Position numbers and translations under genes: made by a program
DNA from: Zoogloea oleivorans
Lineage (GTDB): Bacteria; Pseudomonadota; Gammaproteobacteria; Burkholderiales; Rhodocyclaceae
Assembly: GCF_008107625.1 (NCBI RefSeq)
Contig: NZ_SDKK01000005.1
Coordinates: 106,324 to 170,323 of the forward strand
Length of the DNA stretch: 64,000 nucleotides
Direction: 5' to 3'
Shown here: positions 45,000-51,899 of the stretch, piece by piece
Layout of the letters: each line of letters starts with the position of its first letter
Numbering within the stretch: position 1 is the first letter of the stretch
The notes under the pieces: model-generated
What the model was told of the DNA's origin: nothing
Databases searched by the model: none
What the model saw: only the letters and a program-made list of their open reading frames with translations

Positions 45000-45209
45000 G
45001 GGAAGGCGTCGCCACCGTCAGAAAAAGCTTCGCTTGCGAGCCAAAAAGCGTCGCTGTCGTCGAAAAAAGCTTCGCCTGCGAGGCAAAAAGCGTCGCTTGC
45101 GAGGGGGCTTGCTTCGCAAGCGACGCACAAAGTGTCGCTGTCGACGGTGCTTGGGTCGCCAGCGACACAAAAAGCGTCGTGCGCGAGGGGTAAAGTTTCG
45201 CCGCCGGAG
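45000..45209 (+). repeat. Diverged 21-bp tandem repeat array (array B), 10 units
   Basis: Ten consecutive 21-nt units align without gaps from 45000; a weaker eleventh may start at 44979. The consensus is about caaaaagcgtcgcttgcgag plus g. The units at 45042, 45084 and 45168 are closest to it. On the plus strand the heptads read EKASLAS, QKASLSS, KKASPAR, QKASLAR, QKASCAR; on the minus strand SDAFCLA, GEAFFDD, SDAFWLA. It fills the gap between the metH terminator and the 3' end of norQ. I treat it as non-coding. Confidence 0.85.
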
Positions 45210-46296: not shown

Positions 46297-46893
46297 TCAC
46301 CTCATCACGTAAACAAGCGGGAAGAGGACGATCCACACCAGATCCACCATGTGCCAGTAGGCCGCGCCGCTTTCGATGCTGTTCATGTCGGCCGGCCCGT
46401 AGGCGCCCTGGCGGGTTTTTACCCACAGGACGACGAGGATGACCATGCCGAGGATGACGTGCATGAAATGGAAGAAGGTCAGCGACAGATAGAACATGTA
46501 GAAGGTGTTGGTGGACAGGTTGATGCCGGCCCCGAACTTGTCGGCGTACTCGAAGCCCTTGACCACCAGGAAGCCACCGCCGCAGGCGATGCCGGCCAGT
46601 AGCCAGCGGGCGCCGGTGGCGGAGCGGCTGCGCCCGACGGCTTCGACGGCGCGGGCCACGCACCAGCTGCCGGTGATCAGCAGGACGGTGTTGAAGGCTC
46701 CGGCCTGGCGGTCGAGGGTTTGCTGCATCTCGTTGAAGAGTTCGACGTTGTGGGCCCGGCCGAAAGCGTAGGCGCCAAAAAACACCCCGAAGGCGAGCAG
46801 TTCGGCGAGGATGAAGAACCAGATCGCCAGGTCTCCGGGGGGGGAGGCGGCGGGGCCGCTGTGCGGGGGCGATGTGTCGGGGGAGGTATCCAT
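46297..46893 (-). CDS. norE: NorE, cytochrome c oxidase subunit III-like protein
   Basis: A 198-residue protein with five helices and subunit III marks: LAIWFFILAELLAFGVFFGA, SLTFFHFMHVILGMVILVVL and AAYWHMVDLVWIVLFPLVYV. NorE proteins help NO reductase function but carry no metal site. ATG 46893 (MDTSPDTSPP) is preceded by GGAGGTATC on the coding strand; the longer frame upstream is unlikely. A half-conserved box (TTGAT-N4-CCCAA) at 46928-46941 is too degenerate to call. Confidence 0.88.
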   Translation of the reverse strand: MDTSPDTSPPHSGPAASPPGDLAIWFFILAELLAFGVFFGAYAFGRAHNVELFNEMQQTLDRQAGAFNTVLLITGSWCVARAVEAVGRSRSATGARWLLAGIACGGGFLVVKGFEYADKFGAGINLSTNTFYMFYLSLTFFHFMHVILGMVILVVLWVKTRQGAYGPADMNSIESGAAYWHMVDLVWIVLFPLVYVMR

Positions 46894-47037
46894 GCGCGCA
46901 GTGTCACCGGCGTGGCCTTGCACGGCCTTGATCTGTCCCAATTTCCTGTGCATCGGGCGGCACCGAAAAGTCCCCTCAAGTTTTGGGGTTTTACTGCGTT
47001 AGTAACACTTCGGTTATCAGCACACAGGAACAGGACT

Positions 47038-47976
47038 ATGCGCATTTTGCTTGTGGACGATTCGCGGGCGGTGGCTGCGGTGATCGGCGCACGCCTGGAG
47101 GTGATCGGCCACAAGGTGACGGTTGCCGAGAACGGGGAGGTGGCGCTGGCACGCTTTCGGGAGGCGCTGCCTGATCTGGTGCTGATGGACATCGAGATGC
47201 CGGTGATGAACGGTTTCGAGGCAGCCCAGCGGATTCGTGCGCTGGAGGCCACGCAGGACTGGGCATGGACACCGATCATTTTTCTGACCGCTTCGGACAC
47301 GCCGGAGAATCTGGTGACCGCGATTGAGGCGGGGGGCGACGATTTCATCGCCAAAACGGTGCCGGAAGCCGTGCTCCAGGCCAAGATGAAAGCCATGTCG
47401 CGTATTGCCAGTCTGCGTGCCGAGCTGGCTCACGCCAACGGCAAGCTGGAGGCGCTGGCCCGTCAGGACGGACTCACCGGTCTCTGTAACCGGCGCTACA
47501 TGGATTTGCGTCTTGATCATCAATGGGCGGAGGCCTGCCGCGTGGGCGCGTCTTTCGGCTTGCTGATGCTCGACGTGGATAACTTCAAGAAATACAACGA
47601 TGGCTACGGGCATCTGGCTGGCGACGACTGTCTGCGGGCCATTGCGGCGACACTGGCGGAGGTGGTGGCGAAGGCCAATGCCGCCGGGCTGGTCCGGGAT
47701 GCCTTTGCGGCCCGTTACGGCGGCGAGGAGTTTGCGGTGCTGATTCCCCGCTGTTCGGCGGCTGCCCATGCCGGGCTGGGCGCCAGCCTGGTGGCAGCGG
47801 TGCACGCCCTGGGGATTCCCCATCAGAGCAATGCCGGCTGGGGCTGCGTGACGCTGTCGGTGGGGGGCGCGCACGTGCTGCGCGCCGACGGCAAGCTGGT
47901 GCAGCTGTTCCGCCGCGCGGATGCCCACTTGTATCTGGCCAAGGAAAAGGGGCGCAACCGGGCCGAGATGGACTGA
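47038..47976 (+). CDS. Response regulator diguanylate cyclase (REC-GGDEF)
   Basis: A 312-residue protein of PleD/WspR type. The receiver domain (1-125) has the acidic pocket VDDSR and phospho-acceptor Asp51 in LVLMDIEMPVMNGF. The GGDEF domain shows DGLTGLCNRRY and active site GGEEF at residues 228-232, so it should make c-di-GMP. No R-x2-D inhibitory site lies five residues before it. The ATG 47038 directly follows a CAGGA-rich stretch. It is divergent from norE and has no cognate kinase beside it; the hybrid kinases in this window are candidates. Confidence 0.92.
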   Translation: MRILLVDDSRAVAAVIGARLEVIGHKVTVAENGEVALARFREALPDLVLMDIEMPVMNGFEAAQRIRALEATQDWAWTPIIFLTASDTPENLVTAIEAGGDDFIAKTVPEAVLQAKMKAMSRIASLRAELAHANGKLEALARQDGLTGLCNRRYMDLRLDHQWAEACRVGASFGLLMLDVDNFKKYNDGYGHLAGDDCLRAIAATLAEVVAKANAAGLVRDAFAARYGGEEFAVLIPRCSAAAHAGLGASLVAAVHALGIPHQSNAGWGCVTLSVGGAHVLRADGKLVQLFRRADAHLYLAKEKGRNRAEMD

Positions 47977-47992: not shown

Positions 47993-50317
47993 TCAGAGGC
48001 GGCTCTGGATTTCCTCGATGTAGCCGAGCATGCCGGTGCGGATACTGGCGGCGTTGCCTTCGTCCGTATCGATGTGCATGGCCAGCCGGTAGGCCGGATT
48101 GACCCGTACCACCACGTCGCCGAAGATCAGTTCCCGCTCGCCTTCGACCCGCACGCGCACGATGTACTTGTCGCGCACGCGGAAGCGCTTGGCGTCTTCC
48201 GGCGTCATGTGGATGTGGCGCTGGGCGCAGATCACGCCCCGCTCGATGGTGGTGCTGCCGGCCGGCCCTTCGAGGGTGATGCCCGGCGTGTTGACCAGGT
48301 CGCCGGATTCGCGGATCGGCGGCTGGATGCCGACCTTGAACTGCTCGGTCATGGCGATCTCGACCTGCGTTTCCTTGCGCGTCGGGCCAAGTACGCGAAC
48401 GTTGGCGATGCGTCCCTTGGGGCCGACCAGGTGCACTTTCTCGGCACAGGCGAACTGGCCGGGCTGGGACAGCTCGTGTTCGGGGGTCAGCTGGTGGCCG
48501 GGGCCAAACAGCTTTTCCACGTCGGCCTGGCACAGGTGGATGTGGTGGGCCGAGATCTCGATCGGAATCGGCGCCTCGGCTTCTTCTTCCTTCATCGCCA
48601 TGATGAGCTGGTTGCGCTCGATGGCCCGCAGGGTTTCCCAGGCCACCAGGCGCTCGTCGTCGTTGGCAATGACCAGGATGGTGACCGGTGAGTCGTCCGC
48701 CGAGATGATGGCGTGGGAGCTTACGGGGCCGAGGTTGCGGTTCTTTTCCTCGTCGAGCTTGATGCCCATGTAGCCGAGACCCTGGCAGGCCAGGCTGCGT
48801 ACGGTGGCGCTGGTTTCACCGATGTCGCCGGTGAAGGCCAGCACGTCGATGCCGCCCATCGCCGCCACGTAGGCGCCGATGTTCTTGCGTACCTGGTAGC
48901 AGAAGGCCTTGTGGGCCAGCAGGGCACGGTGATGGCCGTCGCTGGCGGCGTTCTCGATGTCGTGGATGTTGCTGGAGATGCCGGAGATGCCCTTCAGGCC
49001 GCTCTCGGTATTGATCAGGTTGGACAGCGCCTCCGGCGACATCTTGTGATGTTCGAGCAGGTGGATCATGACTGCCGGGTCGATGCTGCCGGAGCGGCTC
49101 GGCATGATCAGGCCGTCGGTGGGCGTCATGCCCATGCTGGTGTCCACCGAGCGACCGTGGTCGATGGCGCACAGGGAGGCGCCGATGCCCAGGTGGCAGG
49201 AGACGATTTCCAGTTCGCCCAGTTGGCGTTTGAGCACTTCGGCCGACTTCAGCGAGACGTAGCGGTGGGAGGTGCCGTGGAAACCGTAGCGACGGATGCC
49301 GTCCTGCTTGTAGAGGTCGTAGGGCAGGCCGTACAGGTAGGCGTAGGGCGGCAGGGTCTGGTGGAAGGCGGTGTCGAAGACGGCCACGTGGGGCACGTCA
49401 GGCAGCTGCTTCATGGCCTCGCGGATGCCTTCCACGTTGACCGGGTTGTGCAGCGGCGCAAACACCGACAGGGCTTCGATGTCGGCAATCACCGTCGGGG
49501 TGATGACCACAGCGCTGGAGAATTTGCTGCCGCCATGCACGACCCGGTGGCCGACGGAGGAGACGTCTTCCGGGTGGAAGATGAAGCCGTCGCCGAGCAG
49601 GCTGGTGGCGTCGTGGATGACCCGGAACAGCTCGGAGAGCGGGAAGGGATCACAGGTCAGGATCTTGGTCTGGGTGCCCACCACCACGCTGATGCGGGAA
49701 ACGCAGTCGTCCGAATTGTCGATGATGCCGTGCACATCGGAGCCGAGGTCCTGGGTGTCGTAGATGCCGAAGTGAATCTGGCTGAGACCGACATTGAGCA
49801 CCAGCACCTTGCCCGGGGTGTCGGTGTGCAGGGACAGGGCGTAGGGGTCGTCGGACTTGCTCATGGCGCTGCTCTGGTCGGCGACGAGATCCACCGACAT
49901 CGTCCGCATGCGGTCGAGGAGCAGGCGCGACAGATAGCCGACGGCCTTGGGGTTGGTCAGGATCTGGGCGTTGAAGACGCTCAACGGGATCAGCAGCACG
50001 AAGCAGCGGTTGCCGGCGATCACGTCGGCGGTCACGCGGTCACCGGTGAGGGTGGACATCACGCCGAAGACATCGCCTGGTCCGAGCTGGCTGATCACGG
50101 AGCGGGTGCCCGTGTTGTCGGTGACGGAAATCTCCGAGTGGCCGGTGATCATCACGCCGATGAACTTGCCTTCATCACCGGTTTCGAGGATGGCCTCGTT
50201 CCCCTCGTAGGTGGCAAGGTGGCCCTGACGGACGATTTCCTCGACCTTGTCGGCCGGAAAGCTTTCGAACAGACGGACCTGTTCGAGGAAAAACCGTTTC
50301 AGATCAATTTCGCTCAC
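47993..50317 (-). CDS. Three-part fusion: cNMP-binding domain, acetate kinase, PduL phosphotransacylase
   Basis: A 774-residue protein. Residues 1-140 form a cyclic-nucleotide-binding/CRP-like beta-barrel (LGPGDVFGVMSTLTGDRVTA; the usual Glu of the phosphate cassette is Val, the Arg is kept). Residues 168-570 are acetate/propionate kinase: Asn175, GHRVVHGG with Arg258, FDTAFH with Asp315, RRYGFHGTSH, SRSGSIDP with Arg408, and TGDIGET with Glu501. Residues 585-774 are PduL-type phosphotransacylase with HHIHL, QPGQ, GPKGRIANVRVLGPTR, RHIHM and TDEGNAA. One chain could thus turn acyl-CoA into acyl phosphate and then acid plus ATP. The start is GTG 50317 with a weak GAGA site. It stands alone. 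The kinase N-terminal loop (VGLSQIHF) departs from the usual CGSSSLKF. Confidence 0.88.
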   Translation of the reverse strand: MSEIDLKRFFLEQVRLFESFPADKVEEIVRQGHLATYEGNEAILETGDEGKFIGVMITGHSEISVTDNTGTRSVISQLGPGDVFGVMSTLTGDRVTADVIAGNRCFVLLIPLSVFNAQILTNPKAVGYLSRLLLDRMRTMSVDLVADQSSAMSKSDDPYALSLHTDTPGKVLVLNVGLSQIHFGIYDTQDLGSDVHGIIDNSDDCVSRISVVVGTQTKILTCDPFPLSELFRVIHDATSLLGDGFIFHPEDVSSVGHRVVHGGSKFSSAVVITPTVIADIEALSVFAPLHNPVNVEGIREAMKQLPDVPHVAVFDTAFHQTLPPYAYLYGLPYDLYKQDGIRRYGFHGTSHRYVSLKSAEVLKRQLGELEIVSCHLGIGASLCAIDHGRSVDTSMGMTPTDGLIMPSRSGSIDPAVMIHLLEHHKMSPEALSNLINTESGLKGISGISSNIHDIENAASDGHHRALLAHKAFCYQVRKNIGAYVAAMGGIDVLAFTGDIGETSATVRSLACQGLGYMGIKLDEEKNRNLGPVSSHAIISADDSPVTILVIANDDERLVAWETLRAIERNQLIMAMKEEEAEAPIPIEISAHHIHLCQADVEKLFGPGHQLTPEHELSQPGQFACAEKVHLVGPKGRIANVRVLGPTRKETQVEIAMTEQFKVGIQPPIRESGDLVNTPGITLEGPAGSTTIERGVICAQRHIHMTPEDAKRFRVRDKYIVRVRVEGERELIFGDVVVRVNPAYRLAMHIDTDEGNAASIRTGMLGYIEEIQSRL

Positions 50318-50811: not shown

Positions 50812-51753
50812 TCAGTTCAGGCAGTAATCCACCGGCTCCAGCAGTGGCGGGATGTTGGTGTCCACGAGCGCTTCGCGCAGATTCACTTCAATATGCCGGC
50901 ACAGGGCGTTGAGAGGCAAATCGTCCGGTCCGCTGCCGAAGGGCTGCTCGATGGCGTCGCCGACCGCATCCAGCCCGAAGAAGGTGTAAGCCACGAAGGT
51001 CACTACGAAGGGCGTGGTGGCACCGAGGGTGTCCACCAGCCCGAAGGGCAGCAGGAAGCAGTACAGGTAGGCGGTGCGGTGCAGCAGCAGCGCGTAGGGG
51101 AAGGGGATCGGCGTGCCCTTGATCCGCTCGCAGCCGGCGACGGCCGCGGCAAGGGACGACAGGGTCTGGTCTATGCCGCAGGCGATATTGGTGTCGATGC
51201 GGCCGGTGTCGAGACACAGGCGCAGGTCGGTACCCATGCGCTGCAGCAGGTAATCCGGTGGGTTGGTGCTCTTCTGCATGGCCTCCCACTCTTCGGGTTG
51301 CAGGAAGGGCTTGGTGTCGGGGCCGGGAGGTGTGCCGCGCAGGTAATGCCGCGATGCGTGGGCGAGGGCAATGGCCCGATAGATGAAGCGCACCCGTACA
51401 TCGGCCAGGCCATTCGAGGCCAGCGCAGGGCCGTTCTCCTGCACCATCGACAGCACCTGGCGGGACAGGCTGCGGCTGCGGTGGATGAGCTCACCCCACA
51501 GCTTGCGTGCTTCCCAGTAACGGTCGAAGGCCGCGCTGTTGCGAAAACCCAGGAAGATGGCCAGCGCCAGCCCGATCAGCGAAAAGGGCGCAGTGGTAAC
51601 GACGATCTTGTGATTGAGGAGTTCGCCGTGGGCGAGTGTGACAAGGATTGCCGTCAGCGCGTTGCCGGCCAGCGGGACCAGGATGCGCTTGAGGATCGAG
51701 CCCTTGACGATGAAGAACAGGTGGGGGCCGGTGGGGCGGTCACGGATGATCAT
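50812..51753 (-). CDS. Bestrophin-like anion channel (YneE/UPF0187 family)
   Basis: A 313-residue membrane protein of the bacterial bestrophin family. PFSLIGLALAIFLGFRNSAAFDRYWEARKLWGEL is summarised by its marks GFRNSAAFDRYWEARKLWG near residue 75, and the C-terminal part has FVAYTFFGLDAVGDAIEQPF with acidic residues that line the cytosolic domain. About four helices are evident. The start is ATG 51753 (MIIRDRPTGP); the frame stays open upstream into tRNA-Thr, which cannot be coding. It lies 71 nt after the tRNA on the same strand with no terminator between, so readthrough transcription is possible. Confidence 0.88.
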   Translation of the reverse strand: MIIRDRPTGPHLFFIVKGSILKRILVPLAGNALTAILVTLAHGELLNHKIVVTTAPFSLIGLALAIFLGFRNSAAFDRYWEARKLWGELIHRSRSLSRQVLSMVQENGPALASNGLADVRVRFIYRAIALAHASRHYLRGTPPGPDTKPFLQPEEWEAMQKSTNPPDYLLQRMGTDLRLCLDTGRIDTNIACGIDQTLSSLAAAVAGCERIKGTPIPFPYALLLHRTAYLYCFLLPFGLVDTLGATTPFVVTFVAYTFFGLDAVGDAIEQPFGSGPDDLPLNALCRHIEVNLREALVDTNIPPLLEPVDYCLN

Positions 51754-51824
51754 CGGGGCCTGGTATCGCAGCAGCGCACAGCGAAGAAATAACCGGGAAT
51801 GGACCGAGGAACTACAGGGTTCGG

Positions 51825-51899
51825 TGGTGCCCATGGGCAGGATTGAACTGCCGACCTCTCCCTTACCAAGGGAGTGCTCTGCCACTGAGCTACATGGGC
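51825..51899 (-). tRNA. tRNA-Thr(GGU)
   Basis: Read on the minus strand, GCCCATG pairs with CATGGGC and CCA is encoded. The D arm is AGCTCAGTGGCAGAGC, the anticodon arm CTCCC-TTGGTAA-GGGAG with anticodon GGT, and the T arm has GTTCAATC. It follows tRNA-Gly by 102 nt. Confidence 0.96.

Follow-up and report, generated by a model that had tools for sequence, protein, structure and literature searches.

The window analysed here is a 64,000-nucleotide stretch of the Zoogloea oleivorans genome (contig NZ_SDKK01000005.1, positions 106,324–170,323). On its minus strand, at 47,993–50,317, lies a single open reading frame with a GTG start that encodes a fusion protein of 774 amino acids. Three Pfam domains follow one another in this frame, in the order that an earlier note on the same DNA had read from its letters. 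The N-terminal part is a cyclic-nucleotide-binding-like (CNB) barrel with its C helix (aa 1–141; minus strand, 49,895–50,317), in which the cNMP_binding profile matches aa 36–120 (E 7.6e-14; 51.9 bits against a cut-off of 27.5). It is followed by an acetate-kinase-like (AckA) domain (aa 170–559; minus strand, 48,641–49,810), matched by Acetate_kinase PF00871 over positions 1–391 of the 392 in the profile (E 1.5e-125), and by a PduL-type phosphotransacylase (PTAC) domain (aa 585–759; minus strand, 48,041–48,565), matched by PTAC PF06130 over positions 1–175 of 176 (E 4.8e-78; 261.4 bits against a cut-off of 25). The protein also scores above the cut-offs of the NCBIfam models for the acetate/propionate family kinase and for phosphate propanoyltransferase (NF011652; 265.8 bits against 209), and its sequence matches in the PDB include the acetate kinases 2iir, 6ioy and 1g99 and the R. 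palustris PduL 5cuo. Structure prediction, which the earlier note had proposed, was partly informative: Foldseek recovered the AckA, PduL and CRP-like folds, but the full-length AlphaFold model (37 rows; pLDDT 66.1, pTM 0.52) was too poor for reading domain contacts. In that low-confidence model residues 123–154 form a helix.

The fusion gene is convergent with the gene of a response regulator carrying a GGDEF domain (46,720–47,976), and a bestrophin-type gene (50,812–51,885) lies on the same strand, 494 bp upstream. The window also holds a degenerate tandem array with periods of 21 and 42 bp (45,006–45,179), flanked by a metH-like gene on one side and an AAA+-like gene on the other, both named by reading of their translations.

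An assembly artefact, a frameshift or a chance fusion was ruled out by the presence of the single open frame in same-genus relatives and in many public genomes. In the genus of the host, the fusion was found in 20 of 22 relatives: 19 of them carry it as a single frame, and in the 20th it falls into two pieces at contig ends. The separate genes that the earlier note had allowed for, in a frameshift-corrected assembly, were thus not what these relatives showed. In a public genome collection, 175 stretches carried a relative of the fusion, and the best 80 of the 175 shared 71–94% identity with it; the titles of these 80 name Zoogloea, Dechloromonas, Azonexus, Azoarcus, Thauera, Propionivibrio, Rhodocyclus and related groups, a good part of them being titled to class or phylum level only.

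The whole-genome searches covered Pseudomonadota and used thresholds set for each rank. Within the family, 92 of 385 genomes matched a query made of the C end of the kinase and the PduL domain (E 1e-60); five of these, all from one genus, had stop codons inside the match and were left out, giving 87 fusion genomes. In one of these five (L138, genome G143), AckA and PduL are encoded by separate adjacent genes, and the AckA has an intact ATP site. Five of 300 genomes of the order matched at E 1e-40, all five from the same family, and 7 of 398 genomes of the phylum matched at E 1e-30. These seven comprise the Z. oleivorans genome itself, genome G705 with a three-domain relative, two genomes with a two-domain AckA-PduL fusion and three with a standalone PduL gene. 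Within its own class, G705 was the sole match at E 1e-55 (1 of 240). The three-domain order, whose distribution in Rhodocyclales the earlier note had proposed to examine, is therefore found in relatives and is concentrated in one family, with Rhodocyclales names.

Two kinds of protein resemble the fusion most closely. The G705 protein (L142/L175), from another class of Pseudomonadota, has the same CNB, AckA and PTAC domains and 54% identity overall, but differs in keeping intact all seven of the ATP/metal sites described below, as well as the CNB glutamate; because L175 lies on an 18-kb contig, its host is less certain. The two-domain fusions have the same AckA-then-PTAC chain, and were found in G739, G748, G1268 (from the order of G705) and G1382 (from the class of Z. 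oleivorans), and also on plasmids of Polaromonas naphthalenivorans (PNAP_RS22490 on pPNAP02) and Paracoccus. In contrast to the three-domain proteins, no CNB domain was seen in them, and the ATP site is intact in the five that were tabled and, by eye, in that of G1382. On pPNAP02 (L178, 1,388–9,420), the AckA-PduL gene stands in a run with genes for polyphosphate kinase 2, a P-type ATPase, fabI and a DUF3141 gene.

The alignment for the kinase domain comprised 104 three-domain proteins, all distinct, together with 5 two-domain fusions and 22 rows of standalone AckA, and residues were numbered after the M. thermophila acetate kinase (MtACK) by alignment to 1tuu/1g99. Partial proteins (L024, L095, L102, L114, L180), identical copies, L149 (the same gene as L176) and standalone AckA pieces shorter than 360 aa were dropped before counting; L182 was read by eye and stands outside the residue table. 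The 22 standalone rows represent 21 distinct genes (L002 and L117 are one gene of the Z. oleivorans genome), and this duplicate is also within the 28 reference rows. All three-domain proteins other than L175 form the clade considered here, 103 in number, which count as sequences and not as independent events since some are near-identical.

In all 103 distinct proteins of this clade, the equivalents of MtACK S10, S12, K14, N211, G239, G331 and E384 are replaced. In the window protein, the PHOSPHATE1 loop, a motif named in PMC4390882 (aa 175–182; minus strand, 49,772–49,795), has L178, Q180 and H182 for S10, S12 and K14, while N7 and S11 are kept, in agreement with the earlier note, which had described the N-terminal loop of the kinase as altered. 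In the PHOSPHATE2 loop (aa 375–381; minus strand, 49,175–49,195) N211 is replaced by I378; in LOOP3 (aa 405–410; minus strand, 49,088–49,105) G239 is replaced by P406, with R241 retained as R408; in the ADENOSINE loop (aa 495–503; minus strand, 48,809–48,835) G331 is replaced by D498; and the equivalent of the metal ligand E384, aa 554, is Asp (minus strand, 48,656–48,658). Across the clade, S10 is mostly Ile or Leu, S12 is Gln or Arg, K14 is His or Arg, N211 is mostly Ile or Val, G239 is Pro, Ser or Ala, G331 is Asp, Glu, Arg, His or Gln, and E384 is Asp in 95 proteins, Asn in 6 and His in 2.

The same residues are well kept elsewhere. In the reference rows, S10, G239, G331 and E384 are present in 28 of 28, S12 and K14 in 27, and N211 in 20; the corresponding counts for the standalone rows are 22 of 22, 21 and 14, and the five two-domain fusions and L175 keep all seven sites. 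Among the kinase positions, 62 are conserved in 27 or all 28 of the reference rows. Seven of these 62 are lost in all 103 clade proteins; six of the seven are nucleotide/metal sites, and the last is a Gly to Ala change at 415. The nucleotide-site set used in a Fisher count of these losses held eight sites, two of which (N7 and S11) are not lost; it was drawn from MtACK papers and applied after the counts had been seen, and the p value is not independent because the sites share one branch. In MtACK, the beta phosphate is contacted by Asn211 and, along with the alpha phosphate, by Gly331; replacing N211, G239 or G331 singly reduces activity by a factor of 6 to 200 (PMC4390882). Glu384 is a presumed metal ligand, and activity was undetectable in the P. 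gingivalis enzyme when the corresponding residue was changed (Glu385Ala; PMC6461089). L158 carries the three-domain gene as a tandem pair; both copies have altered ATP sites, with different signatures.

The acetyl side of the same domain is preserved. The equivalents of R91, V93, H123, D148, F179, H180, P232 and R241 are unchanged in 103 of 103 proteins and that of L122 in 92. Arg91 and Arg241 contact the carboxyl group of acetate (PMC6461089). P232 is not a general AckA marker, being Pro in 3 of the 22 standalone rows. An unusual acyl preference, which the earlier note had considered, is not indicated, as the pocket looks ordinary (V93, F179 and P232 invariant, L122 nearly so). That note had also described the acetate-kinase core as complete: the description suits the fold, but in the active site Ile378, Pro406, Asp498 and Asp554 stand for N211, G239, G331 and E384. 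Thus, compared with canonical acetate kinases (M. thermophila 1g99/1tuu and Thermotoga 2iir), the fusion has the same fold and acetyl-side residues, at about 40% identity in the Foldseek rows, but replaced PHOSPHATE1, PHOSPHATE2, LOOP3, ADENOSINE and E384 sites. From the seven replaced sites and the kept acetyl-side residues, the sequence predicts that the use of Mg-ATP has been lost and the acetyl side retained.

PduL-type phosphotransacylases catalyse the reaction acetyl-CoA + Pi ↔ acetyl phosphate + CoA. In the PduL domain, H592, H594, R647, E653, H701, H703 and H748 are present in 109 of 109 proteins, and include both histidine motifs reported in the earlier note. All seven align with the zinc ligands and the phosphate-binding arginine of R. 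palustris PduL 5cuo, whose roles (two HxH pairs, a third His and a Glu for zinc, and the Arg for phosphate) are taken from PMC4784909. These residues are common to both proteins, while the PduL of the window forms the C-terminal part of a larger chain. Since its metal and phosphate residues are intact, phosphotransacylase activity would be expected.

The barrel is less conventional. Placed by alignment to a PKA regulatory subunit, the equivalents of CRP Glu72 and Arg82, residues of the phosphate-binding cassette, are Val86 and Val95 in the window protein. The earlier note had rightly seen that the glutamate of the cAMP cassette is missing. In the clade, the Glu72 equivalent is present in 20 of 103 proteins and the Arg82 equivalent in none, and the latter is absent from the ATP-intact sister L175 too, in spite of its kept glutamate. 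With Arg82 absent in 103 of 103, ordinary cAMP binding is unlikely; the gating that the earlier note had suggested, by a nucleotide or redox ligand, might involve some other ligand.

In a tree of the kinase domain, the altered proteins form one side of a single branch (SH-aLRT 99), the ATP-intact L175 joins them next (99), and the two-domain fusions follow (83). The tree was built by a quick method from 66 of 131 rows, with six of the seven sites removed and 554 retained; long branches were flagged in its checks, and the branch joining two-domain and three-domain proteins has a support of only 83. The position of the altered proteins on one branch next to L175 is most simply explained by a single loss, after the three-domain protein had arisen. 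Since that loss, the kinase domain has been under purifying selection. For six pairs, dN/dS was 0.10–0.31 in the kinase domain against 0.03–0.09 in the PduL domain, values which place the kinase domain as less constrained than PduL and far from neutral. Nine pairs were compared in all, position by position and without gap handling; those of L036, L038 and L040, where an indel makes the PduL values unusable, were left out of the quoted range, and their kinase values (0.20–0.23) fall inside it. The most changed part of the kinase domain is its N-terminal lobe, which carried PHOSPHATE1: the median identity of the clade to L175 is 25% there, against 62% in the core.

The fusion occurs once in the Z. 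oleivorans genome, which elsewhere encodes one standalone AckA, beside a Pta-type gene. This genome has three PF01515 (Pta) matches, and its single PF06130 match is the fusion itself. A standalone AckA was present in 53 of 55 fusion genomes (this genome and 54 of the 87, picked from other genera and at least 90% complete) and absent in G082 and G1032; within the genus, 21 of 23 genomes had a standalone AckA match. The idea that the fusion replaces the ordinary AckA was ruled out by these 53 genomes, and the fusion is therefore an extra protein rather than the usual acetate kinase of the cell.

No conserved gene neighbour was found across the 98 loci scanned, some genes of which are counted twice through two collections; the largest shared cluster occurred in 22 loci and the next in 17, so no pathway is indicated by context. 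Read from sequence, these two clusters are putative signalling genes and sulfite reductase. FNR-like and CRP-like sites were found upstream of the fusion gene in 0 of 79 loci, and the window had no FNR-like site.

The reading that we favour, to which we give an even chance, is that the protein combines a PduL phosphotransacylase with an N-terminal module, made of a degenerate barrel and an AckA domain that is blind to nucleotides and serves as an acetyl-phosphate receptor. The PduL site would make or consume acetyl phosphate, the AckA domain would bind acetyl phosphate from the adjacent PduL without using ATP, and the closing of the cleft, a typical feature of the AckA fold, would pass this binding on as a regulatory signal to the PduL site or the barrel. 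In short, the likely role of the fusion is to sense acetyl phosphate or to divert it, and not to form ATP from it. Such a receptor explains why the acetyl pocket was kept while the nucleotide and metal half was lost. Against it count D148, N7 (101 of 103), S11 (86 of 103) and the acidic residue in the place of E384 (Asp in 95 of 103), all of which are kept and hint at a possible residual phosphate or metal chemistry. The variable replacements, such as D, E, R, H or Q for G331, also count against it, as they fit a loss better than a defined new site, and conserved contacts such as a regulatory role predicts were not identified. The fuller version, in which a receptor that lost its ATP and metal sites once, in one family, gates the fused phosphotransacylase and the barrel serves a second ligand, is only tentatively put forward.

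The kept D148 and nearly invariant N7 would be explained if the AckA domain, which is under selection and retains its acetyl-side catalytic residues, transferred phosphate with a partner other than a nucleotide, either Pi/PPi, as in the acetate kinase of Entamoeba histolytica (4h0o), or water. The net reaction would be acetyl-CoA + 2 Pi ↔ acetate + CoA + PPi, or the hydrolysis of acetyl-CoA via acetyl phosphate. The PPi-dependent Entamoeba enzyme is likewise altered at N211, G239 and G331, where it has Thr, Ser and Gln (PMC4390882). The commonest replacements in the fusion, however, are Ile, Pro and Asp; the extra Gly that the Entamoeba PHOSPHATE2 loop carries, according to PMC5517563, has no counterpart in the fusion, whose loop shows no insertion relative to 1tuu; E384 is Asp, Asn or His in 103 of 103; and the former beta-phosphate contact is in most cases occupied by a hydrophobic residue. 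As the features specific to Entamoeba are not common to the fusion, we regard this alternative as possible but rather unlikely.

We consider it improbable that the window protein works as an ATP-dependent acetate kinase and a phosphotransacylase in one, channelling acyl phosphate under the control of a nucleotide, as the earlier note had proposed. Both enzyme domains are full length, a fusion of AckA and PduL for channelling is suggested in PMC4784909, and the ATP sites of L175 and of the five tabled two-domain fusions are intact. An ATP-forming channel fits these relatives better than the clade of the window protein, in which all seven sites are replaced throughout, including four that no reference row has lost (S10, G239, G331 and E384), the Arg82 equivalent of the barrel is missing and a standalone AckA nearly always coexists. 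Slightly less probable again is a purely structural AckA domain, serving as a spacer or as a scaffold for dimerisation in what would simply be a PduL enzyme; the lost nucleotide sites and the strongly diverged N-terminal lobe would agree with this, but a mere scaffold would not seem to require an acetate pocket and transition-state residues that are invariant in 103 proteins.

AckA-PduL fusions are already known: fusions of PF06130 with Ack, and the idea of channelling, were in print in 2016 (PMC4784909). What appears to be new is the loss of the ATP site in the three-domain clade. In the open-licence literature, searched by titles, abstract openings and term counts, the matches listed held nothing recognisable on the three-domain protein or on ATP-site loss in such fusions, and among the matches listed for acetate kinase with pseudoenzyme terms, the term acetate kinase was absent. 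Acetyl phosphate has a central place in metabolism and donates phosphoryl and acetyl groups to proteins, and we know of no dedicated receptor for it. If the receptor reading is true, a single protein would be the place where the cell adjusts its pool of acetyl phosphate. The clade is a natural set of proteins in which one half of the acetate-kinase site has been lost and the other kept, with the ATP-intact sister as a control, which makes the receptor, the non-ATP kinase and the scaffold directly testable. Such fusions probably pass for ordinary acetate kinases in genome annotations; the three AckA-PduL relatives whose annotation was available are all called acetate/propionate family kinase.
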